IMG/VR virus record: IMGVR_UViG_3300028384_000522
Coordinates: 1-23,369 of that record
DNA length: 23,369 bases
DNA from: a virus
Direction: 5' to 3' (one strand)
Made by a program: the position numbers and the translations under genes. Positions 1 through 8,250 of this stretch are shown here, in pieces. A model generated the notes under the pieces. It was not told the origin of the DNA and did no database searches. It worked only from the letters and a program-made list of their open reading frames with translations. Each line of letters begins with the position of its first letter. The first letter of the stretch is position 1.

Positions 1-144
1 AGCCTCTCTGTAGATATCTCTACCTAAAGCCTCCCACTGATCTCCCTTTGCCCACATACACTCTTTAACGGCACGAGGTAGCCTTGTACCAGTTATTCTA
101 TTTTTTCTCTGATCATGCCATTCAGGTGTACCTTGCTTAATCAT
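1..144 (-). CDS. YqaJ-type viral recombinase / exonuclease, N-terminal 48 residues (partial)
   Basis: The reading frame starts with ATG at 144 and runs off the left window edge without a stop. The N-terminus contains QGTPEWHDQRKNRITGTRL, which matches the opening motif of YqaJ/lambda-type exonucleases (a Q-G-[ST]-x-E-W segment, then an arginine and a [IV]-T-[GA]-[ST] segment). These enzymes digest one strand of duplex ends in phage recombination. The start overlaps the last 8 nt of the ERF annealing gene upstream on the same strand, so the two are probably translationally coupled. An exonuclease next to an annealing protein is the standard two-component phage recombination pair. The catalytic residues lie outside the window, so the family call rests on the N-terminal motif and on context. 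Confidence 0.75.
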   Translation of the reverse strand, partial: MIKQGTPEWHDQRKNRITGTRLPRAVKECMWAKGDQWEALGRDIYREA

Positions 145-757
145 TCTTGTACACCTTTGTGAATGCTAAAACTAATTGTTTTTTTATTTCATCATCACCG
201 CTCAAGTTGGCAACCTTTTCATATTTTTTATATATTTCTTTGGCTTTTTCCTTGTTTGCACATGCCTTTATTTCTTTAGTAAAGTCATCAACCATTACAG
301 CAGACTCATCTACTTCTTCAGCGGGTGCTCCTTGATCAACTCCCTCAAGCTCTGGCTCTACAACACCTTCAAAAGGCACGCAGAAAGTTTCAAGTAAAGC
401 ATTACGATATGCAAAAGATCTTGCAGATTCTAAATCTTTACCTTGTTGTGATTTACTATGCCCAACATAAGACCTGTCTACATAAGACCCATCTTCAGTA
501 GAAATAAATCTCAAAGTTCCAACAACTCTTGTTAGTGTTGATCTTCCATCATCTAAGAATTTTGTTGATACTTTAAGATCTGGTTGGACCAAAGTAAGTA
601 TATTGTTATCGTGCAGTGGTTTAGAAAAAGATTGTATGATCTGATCAATCCCTCTGTACTTATATTTTTGAAATGTATTTACTCCCTCTTTTGCAATCGG
701 GTTTTGATACATATAGTTTTGCACATTTTTAAGTGCTGTATATATTTCTTTATTCAT
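137..757 (-). CDS. ERF-family single-strand annealing protein
   Basis: This 206-aa protein has the ERF superfamily pattern. A conserved KYKYRGIDQIIQSF segment lies near residues 31-44, followed by an annealing-core region with SKSQQGKDLESARSFAYRNALLETF around residues 101-125 (only partly conserved here). The acidic segment after residue 130 is likely a flexible linker before a small C-terminal domain. Members bind single-stranded DNA and anneal complementary strands in phage recombination or genome circularisation. The start ATG at 757 has a perfect AGGAGG at 763-768. It is the first gene of a leftward unit that continues into a YqaJ-type exonuclease, which supports the function. Confidence 0.88.
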   Translation of the reverse strand: MNKEIYTALKNVQNYMYQNPIAKEGVNTFQKYKYRGIDQIIQSFSKPLHDNNILTLVQPDLKVSTKFLDDGRSTLTRVVGTLRFISTEDGSYVDRSYVGHSKSQQGKDLESARSFAYRNALLETFCVPFEGVVEPELEGVDQGAPAEEVDESAVMVDDFTKEIKACANKEKAKEIYKKYEKVANLSGDDEIKKQLVLAFTKVYKND

Positions 758-3128: not shown

Positions 3129-3276
3129 CAACTTTAGAAATTTTTGTAAAATGATGTACGAAGAGTGCAAGTCTGAGAGAAGAAAGTATAATGAAGATCA
3201 AATTGATTTTGATGACTATCTTATTCAAAACAATAAATTTTTAGTTAAAGAATATGCAAGGCAGAACGCCAAATAA
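3118..3276 (+). CDS. small acidic/basic hypothetical protein (52 aa)
   Basis: A short ORF begins MEHDNFRNFCKMMYEECKSE and ends YARQNAK. It overlaps the upstream coiled-coil gene by 11 nt and the downstream Ref-like nuclease gene by 23 nt, and without it there would be a 125-nt gap in an otherwise gapless operon. The composition (charged, few hydrophobics) is like that of neighbouring proteins. AGAGAAACAG upstream offers a weak ribosome binding site, so coupling to the previous gene is likely. No function is recognisable. Confidence 0.6.
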   Translation: MEHDNFRNFCKMMYEECKSERRKYNEDQIDFDDYLIQNNKFLVKEYARQNAK

Positions 3277-3556
3277 AAAAGAAAAACAATGGATGGACTC
3301 TATATCTAACTTTGGTTGCATTGTGTGCAAACTTTTTTATCAATGCGATAGTCCAGCTGAGATTCATCACATAGATGGCAAGACAAAACCAGAGGCACAT
3401 CTCAAAACATTACCGCTTTGTTATAAGCATCACAGAGAAGGTGTCAATAATGACATGTATGTTTCCAGACATCCTTTTAAAAAAGAATTTGAAAAGAGGT
3501 ATGGCAAACAGTATGACTTATTGGAGAGATTGCAAGAACTTATAGAGAATGATTAA
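3254..3556 (+). CDS. Ref-like HNH recombination-enhancement nuclease
   Basis: This 100-aa protein has the compact layout of the P1 Ref nuclease core. A CIVC pair lies at residues 22-25, AEIHHIDGKTKPEAHL at about 35-50 contains the HH of the HNH site, LPLCYKHH at about 53-60 gives the second Cys/His cluster, and a histidine at about 73 precedes a helical tail (FEKRYGKQYDLLERL). In P1, Ref cuts DNA at RecA-coated D-loops. Such small nucleases are common in phage recombination and replication modules. Here the gene sits in the replication operon, on the other strand from the ERF and YqaJ genes. Target and RecA dependence are inferred from family membership. Confidence 0.8.
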   Translation: MQGRTPNKKEKQWMDSISNFGCIVCKLFYQCDSPAEIHHIDGKTKPEAHLKTLPLCYKHHREGVNNDMYVSRHPFKKEFEKRYGKQYDLLERLQELIEND

Positions 3557-5682: not shown

Positions 5683-5710
5683 AAAAAAAAGCGGAGTAAT
5701 TACCCCGCTT
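5683..5710 (-). terminator. rho-independent terminator of the leftward small-protein operon
   Basis: Read on the minus strand, AAGCGG pairs with CCGCTT, extended inward through a G-U pair and GTA/TAC, and is followed by eight U residues (A-run at 5683-5690). It lies 14 nt after the stop of the zinc-ribbon gene. In the plus direction the same hairpin has an A-C mismatch and a broken T-run, so it fits the leftward direction better. Confidence 0.8.
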
Positions 5711-5724
5711 CTTTGAATCATGGT

Positions 5725-5871
5725 TTACTTTTCTTTTTTATGCTCCTCCTCGTATGTAGTAAACCTTCTTTTGCATTCCAGACATTCACGCCTACGTTTA
5801 TTAACTGATCCGTCAACAAACTTGCGGACATCTACAACTCTGGAGTTGCCGCCACATTCTCTACACTTCAT
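5725..5871 (-). CDS. stand-alone NrdR-type zinc ribbon protein (48 aa)
   Basis: The protein reads [18 protein letters not shown] then [18 protein letters not shown]. Cys 3, 6, 30 and 33 form two CxxC knuckles, and the RRRREC-L-EC-x-RRFTTYE block is the hallmark of the N-terminal zinc ribbon of NrdR, the bacterial repressor of ribonucleotide reductase genes. The ATP-cone that follows in NrdR (full length about 150 aa) is absent, and a stop codon follows eight residues after the motif. GGAG precedes the start at proper spacing and ATGA overlaps the upstream gene, so this looks like an intact small gene and not a fragment. DNA binding is inferred; a nucleotide-sensing role is unlikely without the cone. 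Confidence 0.82.
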
Positions 5872-7256: not shown

Positions 7257-7436
7257 TTACACCTCTCTCTTTAATGCAACCCATTCAAACTTGTATCCAA
7301 GTTTCTTGAGTAGATTTAGATCAAGATCAGAAAAGGTCTTGGTCCCTTTGAAAGATGCAAGCATCTTCCCTTGGTTACAAGCTGGATAAACCAACTCATT
7401 ACCAAATACGTTTTTAATTATTAGTTCAATTGTCAT
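7257..7436 (-). CDS. small conserved phage protein with IKNVFGNELVYPAC motif (59 aa)
   Basis: The protein starts MTIELIIKNVFGNELVYPAC and continues with KMLASFKGTKTFSDLDL and LKKLGYKFEWV. This order (K-N-V-[FY]-G-N-E-L-[IV]-YP-x-C, then T-K-T-[FL], then LGY) recurs in small phage proteins of unknown function. AAGGAGGG gives a strong ribosome binding site. The gene is the first downstream of the hammerhead at 7459-7512; if that ribozyme cleaves, its mRNA begins with a 28-nt leader and a 5'-OH. Confidence 0.78.
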   Translation of the reverse strand: MTIELIIKNVFGNELVYPACNQGKMLASFKGTKTFSDLDLNLLKKLGYKFEWVALKREV

Positions 7437-7458: not shown

Positions 7459-7512
7459 GACTAAGACTCCCATTGCTGGGAGTTTCGCTCATTGAGAGCT
7501 CATCAGTTAGCC
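7459..7512 (-). ncRNA. type I hammerhead ribozyme (HHR-1)
   Basis: On the minus strand all catalytic core elements are present in order: stem I strand GGCTAA (7512-7507), CTGATGA (7506-7500), stem II GCTC/GAGC with loop TCAAT, GAA (7486-7484), stem III ACTCCC/GGGAGT with loop AGCAAT, the cleavage-site C (7465), and stem I return strand TTAGTC (7464-7459). Stem I closes with six pairs including one G-U. G10.1-C11.1, A15.1-U16.1 and C17 are as required. Cleavage is predicted between 7465 and 7464. It begins at the last base of the upstream stop codon and lies before the ribosome binding site of the downstream gene. No cleavage data exist here. Confidence 0.94.
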
Positions 7513-7895
7513 TAGCTGTGATACCACATATCCCACTTCTGCACGATCTCATAAACATCGTAGTTAGCATCGTTTTGGATGGCTTCTTTGAGATCACCAA
7601 AGACTGCTGATCTATAGTCCCATCTATCAGGCTTGTTGATGGTGTAGCCCTTGTCCATGAAGTAGGCATAGTCTTCAACCAGTCCATGATCCTTGGACAG
7701 TTCCTTGGTGATCCATTTCACCATGTCTTCCGCTTGATCATGAAACTGTTTTTTGAGCTCAACATATTTCAAGAAGTTGATGTGATTGGATTCAAACAAT
7801 TCCTCCTTATCAGCTCTTCCCATGATCTCAGTGGCAATAACCATTTCTTTTTCCCAAGTAACTTGAGCGTCTGTTTTTTTATCCAGTTTTGTCAT
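7512..7895 (-). CDS. hypothetical protein bracketed by two hammerhead ribozymes (127 aa)
   Basis: The frame is open to 7973, but ATG 7895 is the real start: TTAGGAGGG precedes it, and the upstream part of the frame is the ribozyme at 7916-7982. The protein starts MTKLDKKTDAQVTWEKEMVI, is helical and charged, and contains LVEDYAYFMDKGYTINKPDRW, then FGDLKEAIQNDANYDVYEIV. It has no recognisable enzyme motif, membrane span or signal. The TAG stop at 7514-7512 touches HHR-1. This ORF with its ribosome binding site is the only cargo of the 457-nt RNA that the two ribozymes would release. Its role is unknown. Confidence 0.8.
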   Translation of the reverse strand: MTKLDKKTDAQVTWEKEMVIATEIMGRADKEELFESNHINFLKYVELKKQFHDQAEDMVKWITKELSKDHGLVEDYAYFMDKGYTINKPDRWDYRSAVFGDLKEAIQNDANYDVYEIVQKWDMWYHS

Positions 7896-7915
7896 AGTCC
7901 CTCCTAATTTTGTTT

Positions 7916-7982
7916 GACTAAGACCATCTCGATTCGCGGGGAAAAAAGATGGTTTCGACCAATCAGGTCTCATCAGTTAGCC
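7916..7982 (-). ncRNA. type I hammerhead ribozyme (HHR-2)
   Basis: Minus-strand order: GGCTAA (7982-7977), CTGATGA (7976-7970), stem II GACC/GGTC with loop TGATT, GAA (7956-7954), stem III ACCATCT/AGATGGT with a 17-nt loop (7930-7946), cleavage-site C (7922), then TTAGTC (7921-7916). Core nucleotides and stem I are identical to HHR-1, whereas stems II and III differ but remain fully paired. This covariation is strong evidence for selected RNA structure. Predicted cleavage is between 7922 and 7921. The TGA stop of the 69-aa gene (7975-7973) lies within the catalytic CTGATGA. Confidence 0.95.
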
Positions 7983-8222: not shown

Positions 8223-8250
8223 AGTATAGCTATACGATATGTAGTGTCAA
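8223..8250 (-). promoter_or_regulatory. sigma70-type promoter of the leftward small-protein operon
   Basis: On the minus strand a consensus TTGACA (8250-8245) and TATACT (8228-8223) are separated by 16 nt. An AT-rich stretch with the tandem repeat GAAATTAATT (8261-8280) lies just upstream and could act as an UP element. Transcription would start near 8216, about 34 nt before the first ATG, and carry both hammerhead ribozymes. Confidence 0.75.

Follow-up and report, generated by a model that had tools for sequence, protein, structure and literature searches.

What do two hammerhead ribozymes (HHRs) on the same strand, one before and one after a single small gene, do for a phage? The question is raised by a phage contig of 23,369 bases (IMG/VR record IMGVR_UViG_3300028384_000522, positions 1-23,369), the whole of which is the window analysed here. 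That two such elements, HHR-2 and HHR-1, bracket a 127-aa ORF can be seen directly in the sequence, in agreement with the original prediction. The same prediction went on to propose a circular or end-capped mRNA or a mobile ribozyme-bracketed cassette. The analysis below points to another role: HHR-2 and HHR-1 probably punctuate an operon that runs from its own promoter to a terminator and consists of small genes open to exchange, cutting the RNA at gene boundaries.

Structure of the two hammerheads

Both elements have the invariant core CUGANGA...GAAA...UH around three helices. On the minus strand, HHR-2 (7982-7916) reads GGCUAA CUGAUGA GACC-UGAUU-GGUC GAA A(stem III, 8 bp)U C^UUAGUC, and HHR-1 (7512-7459) reads GGCUAA CUGAUGA GCUC-UCAAU-GAGC GAA A(stem III, 7 bp)U C^UUAGUC. 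The core and stem I are common to the two, and stems II and III differ. Stem I is an open helix through which the 5' and 3' ends exit, with loops closing stems II and III, and both HHRs are assigned to type I because stem I is open. For both elements the minimum free energy (MFE) structure coincides exactly with the hammerhead fold, a three-way junction, at -20.3 and -20.8 kcal/mol (z of -3.3 and -2.5). Run on both strands of 300 shuffled versions of the window with dinucleotide content preserved, a looser-core descriptor (CTGANGA, short stems) found 0 matches. The curated (gathering) threshold of Rfam was not reached by HHR-2 (20.1 bits versus 34), and HHR-1 gave no match at E<=10; because core and fold are intact in both HHRs, and because the threshold does not define a hammerhead biochemically, this miss is read as a limit of the Rfam model.

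Cleavage at the two predicted sites would yield a minus-strand RNA of 457 nt, from 7921 to 7465, with one ribosome-binding site and one complete ORF, as originally proposed. The 5'-OH and 2',3'-cyclic phosphate ends expected of such a released monocistronic RNA are likewise supported by the sequence.

The operon and its genes

HHR-2 and HHR-1 are intergenic points in a leftward operon that runs from a promoter at about 8250 to a terminator at about 5685 (Table 1). Each HHR begins at the stop codon of the preceding gene and ends approximately 25 nt before the next start codon; the last base of the TAG stop of the 127-aa ORF is also the base with which stem I of HHR-1 begins. The promoter is inside a promoter-leader block that is 99% identical in two other loci (L106 and L129), where a different gene follows, and the leader that HHR-2 cleavage would leave is also present in L014 and L097, ahead of another gene.

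Table 1. Features of the window that bear on the operon and its ribozymes.
Feature	Position	Strand	Basis or remark
Sigma-70-like promoter, TTGACA-N16-TATACT	8223..8250	-	11/12 consensus match only; before the first gene of the leftward operon
First operon gene, 69 aa	7973..8182	-	TGA stop inside HHR-2 core
HHR-2, type I hammerhead	7916..7982	-	Predicted cleavage between 7922/7921; descriptor, fold, shuffles
U16.1 and C17 of HHR-2	7922..7923	-	From hammerhead consensus; predicted cleavage 3' of C7922
Leader left after HHR-2 cleavage	7896..7921	-	Reaches to the start codon; has the UUAGUC arm, an A-rich stretch and GGAGG
127-aa ORF (cassette gene c1/g1)	7512..7895	-	GGAGG ribosome-binding site; predicted all-helical
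HHR-1, type I hammerhead	7459..7512	-	Predicted cleavage between 7465/7464; descriptor, fold, shuffles; alignable with relatives
59-aa gene (c5/g5) after HHR-1	7257..7436	-	First of the plain downstream genes
48-aa protein gene, NrdR-like zinc ribbon alone (PF22811)	5725..5871	-	Last gene before the terminator
Intrinsic terminator, operon end	5685..5714	-	Sequence prediction
RecA-dependent nuclease, Ref type (PF16786)	3254..3556	+	Same phage as the ERF recombinase
ERF-family single-strand annealing recombinase	140..757	-	Pfam PF04404, E=4.5e-9

Profile searches identified a terminase, an SU10-like portal, a capsid protein and a DnaB helicase in the window, and gave no family match for the 69-aa first gene. 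The ERF gene is present in six of six related phage contigs, and the gene for the NrdR-like 48-aa protein is found in many relatives. The closest named terminase, that of Roseobacter phage CRP-7, is too distant (35.5% identity) to name a host. A strict HHR pattern matched once in a genome collection of 84,980 species, in a Daejeonella MAG.

Values of dN/dS for the 127-aa gene (0.11-0.47 overall; 0.12-0.24 between the window and relatives) indicate that it is under purifying selection. Its product, predicted to be all-helical, has no useful match in Pfam, PHROGs or PADLOC and one weak phage match, and the AlphaFold model (pLDDT 85.6) has no fold match.

Relatives of the 127-aa gene

Relatives of the 127-aa protein are encoded at 26 viral loci. 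The original expectation that related phages keep the bracketed layout is borne out by the 16 close relatives (65-90% identity), in which one HHR lies about 26-30 nt upstream of the gene and another immediately at the stop codon, as judged where the contig reaches (L137 ends inside the gene). Altered HHRs occur in three of the 16: the upstream HHR of L126 is a chimera of two HHRs, and the downstream HHRs of L133 and L134 carry a one-base insertion, from which it appears that loss of one HHR site is tolerated. The upstream core of L125 and L127, CTGAAGA, fits the CUGANGA consensus. ORF homologues without the paired ribozymes had been named in advance as evidence against the original prediction, and this turned out to be half the case: there is no HHR near the gene in ten distant homologues, nine of them 45-52% identical (tblastn) and one, L147, a short-fragment match only. 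No HHR remnants are found near these HHR-free genes either.

In L126 (4905-5007; the same contig as L151), two HHRs are fused at GAG/CGAAAC. To judge by its sequence, this chimera records an event in which HHRs recombined or a template switch joined them, and it may still be able to fold, with an enlarged stem II. The insertion in L133 and L134 follows CTGATGA; it leaves the gene intact and probably inactivates the downstream ribozyme, which makes these two loci a natural test case for losing one site.

Among 17 HHRs of the family, 98.2% of cells are paired, with 34 double-change cells versus 10.8 in shuffles, and the covariation score was matched by none of 500 shuffles. The compensatory changes are in stems II and III, stem I being nearly invariant among these HHRs. 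Contigs of 25-55 kb from the family have two or three HHRs of the window type each, all within the operon described here.

A conserved joint between exchanged genes

A 93-bp block comprising HHR-2 and the leader to just past the ATG is 100% identical in three other loci (L097, L126 and L128), in which the genes before and after it are unrelated to those of the window. Near-identical joints have unrelated flanks on both sides in 62 of 145 pairs. With g1 denoting the 127-aa gene and H an HHR, the gene order of the window is g22-H-g1-H-g5, and relatives have the orders g12-H-g9-H-g1, g7-H-g1-H-g5, g9-H-g1-H-g16-H-g5, g11-H-g16-H-g1 and g26-H-g7-H-g5. Two types of stem II and three types of stem III occur in all six combinations, and because of this it is probable that recombination also passed through the HHR itself.

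The idea of HHR junctions as hot spots where genes are exchanged was rejected: distinct gene junctions number 23 of 54 at HHRs and 61 of 132 at plain junctions. Because gene order is equally variable at plain junctions, HHRs do not mark unusual exchange; on these comparisons they are conserved joints in a variable region.

Patterns across phage hammerheads

Three viral pattern scans for HHRs each returned at least 120 viral stretches, and Rfam missed both HHRs of the window at its thresholds; for these reasons HHRs of this kind are judged to be common and probably under-annotated. Among the matches listed, 267 non-redundant phage HHRs favour the placement found in the window: 79% are at the stop of an ORF of at least 50 codons (random, 9%), 46% have a start codon with a Shine-Dalgarno sequence 8-58 nt downstream (random, 12%), and 38% combine a stop with a nearby start and ribosome-binding site (random, 1%).

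Stem I sharing was assessed on loci fetched without any stem I constraint beyond the first base pair, with related contigs merged and stem II as the control. In 18 of the 33 independent groups of neighbouring HHRs (permutations gave a mean of 2.8 and a maximum of 9), a full cross stem can form between the 3' arm of one HHR and the 5' arm of the next one downstream, and stem II compatibility of adjacent HHRs is at chance (6 versus 6.1 expected in the 33 groups). HHRs of one contig that are separated by more than 2.5 kb, a small sample, share stem I in 15% of cases, versus 55%. Neighbouring HHRs resemble each other in both arms of stem I, in some of stem III and in the leader's first bases, with no similarity over stem II or the upstream gene.

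One locus, L414, contains a same-strand series of at least eight HHRs, approximately 320-900 nt apart and with varied stem I. Among the matches listed, the base just before stem I is A in 307 of 328 HHRs and the two bases just after it are AA in 233 of 328, and loop II of phage HHRs is often UNNAU; these recurrent bases suggest that a tertiary contact of loop II with the end of stem I is common to these HHRs.

Alternative explanations

The original prediction took the matching ends of the 457-nt RNA as a sign of a possible special mRNA, circular or end-capped, in which the 5' UUAGUC would pair with the GGCUAA of HHR-1. HHR reversal or a host RtcB would then ligate the ends and yield a stable circular mRNA. 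The complementarity is real (6 bp, with one G.U) and arises because both HHRs have the same stem I; the end chemistry is right for RtcB, and neighbouring HHRs share stem I far above chance. However, the ends are unpaired in the MFE structure of the 457-nt product, and among 72 adjacent pairs cross-pairing is found 39 times in the circle direction and 41 times in the reverse direction, which is useless for circles. With no excess in the circle direction, shared stem I as a sign of selection for circles was rejected. Being symmetric and running into the leader, which is common to neighbours along with the arms, stem I sharing is explained, as far as sequence comparison goes, by common descent or by exchange of the joint. 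A full cross stem is missing from about 45% of adjacent pairs, the eight-HHR array of L414 mixes stems, and, by established chemistry, ring closure would restore an active HHR, which would open the ring again. No RtcB, RNA_ligase or reverse-transcriptase (RVT_1) gene was found in six related phage contigs of 25-55 kb, which would leave the ligation to RtcB of the host, and Perreault et al. 2011 (PMC3088659) state that no circular product was found. A circular or end-tethered mRNA is thus very unlikely. The freed arm UAGUC can pair with a GACUA by the start codon in the 457-nt MFE structure (7921-7895, minus strand), probably by chance, as the match is absent from most other leaders.

The retrozyme-like cassette also proposed for this locus, a mobile element with an RNA intermediate, would account for the same joint being found with different genes across phages and for cassettes in differing orders. 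Its likelihood is close to nil, however: all copies are in one operon of one phage family, at two or three HHRs per contig, with no dispersed copies seen and no reverse transcriptase in the related contigs, and HHR-free homologues of the ORF have no HHR remnants. Persistence of the HHR blocks mainly as DNA homology for recombination, with cleavage incidental, fits the conservation of joint and leader between unrelated genes, the reassortment of stems II and III, the chimeric HHR of L126 and the presence of ERF in all relatives examined (6/6). It is nevertheless unlikely, because compensatory changes keep all the helices, which homology does not need and which lower it, and because HHR junctions are no more variable than plain ones. 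The broken HHRs of L126, L133 and L134 and the distant homologues without HHRs could be taken to mean that the ribozymes are decaying relics without present function, but the cores are perfect, the helices covary, both elements of the window fold exactly, and nearly all close relatives are intact, so that decay is highly improbable.

Relation to known systems

The original prediction knew of no such layout in phages, but HHRs around phage genes have been known since 2011, and the window joins the arrays already described. Clustered HHRs that flank single prophage genes, such as a triple array around ardA in Agrobacterium tumefaciens, were reported by Perreault et al. 2011 (PMC3088659); the arrays tested there cleave in vitro, and one in E. 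coli, circular or spliced products were sought and none was found, and the role proposed was the cutting of long transcripts to single-gene mRNAs. HHR arrays that flank single, variable, small phage genes are also described in PMC6155905, where the role of HHRs in phages is named as an open question, and PMC10085705 describes bacterial HHRs as enriched near each other and near Mu-like phage genes. As in the arrays of Perreault et al., individual phage genes of varying identity are flanked by multiple same-strand HHRs, and the window has at least two of these around one gene in a phage genome. In contrast to those arrays, the window represents a phage family known from metagenomes (IMG/VR), whose HHRs are of type I and have a common stem I, and relatives here reveal gene exchange around a conserved HHR-leader joint. 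No description of a shared stem I or of a conserved HHR-leader joint was found in the literature searched, a partial collection.

The core and three-helix layout are those of Rfam Hammerhead_1 (RF00163) and RAGATH-1 (RF03152), to which HHR-2 is a sub-threshold match, but scores in the window are far under the thresholds and the upstream hairpin of RAGATH-1 aligns only with unpaired bases. Retrozymes and viroid-like satellite RNAs resemble the window in having two HHRs per transcript, matching stem I and an excised unit-length RNA; they differ in that the window has no reverse transcriptase or dispersed repeats and its unit is coding and occupies one genomic position. The comparisons among related phages and across phage HHRs speak against a circular RNA, the interpretation to which the matching ends at first seem to point.

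Proposed role of the hammerheads

The punctuation model brings together what was observed: sequence, fold, covariation, placement, the exchange of genes on either side of a constant joint, and stem I sharing. Each HHR would cut the polycistronic RNA during transcription, so that stems II and III would remain as hairpins at the 3' end of the upstream mRNA, and the mRNA downstream would begin with a short standard 5'-OH leader with a ribosome-binding site. Gene ends would thereby become independent of their neighbours, a form of insulation. RiboJ, an engineered ribozyme insulator derived from a satellite RNA, provides a constant 5' leader and insulates genes in synthetic circuits; as a functional comparison only, the HHRs of the window likewise stand between upstream sequence and a ribosome-binding site and would produce a constant 5' leader. 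The block of DNA containing the HHR and leader stays in place while neighbouring genes are replaced, plausibly by homologous recombination helped by the phage ERF. Of the three helices, only stem I has its two strands in two adjoining cassettes, so that a common stem I would keep any combination cleavable; circularisation would be unnecessary.

A broader reading is offered tentatively, as a possibility that falls well short of the punctuation model in likelihood: phage HHRs may be interchangeable joints, with stem I held in common and stem II diverging, such that any gene with standard arms could be inserted by recombination and excised as an insulated single-gene mRNA. The placement at stop codons, the survival of the HHR-leader block and the sharing of stem I but not stem II now put the role of HHRs in phages in a testable form.
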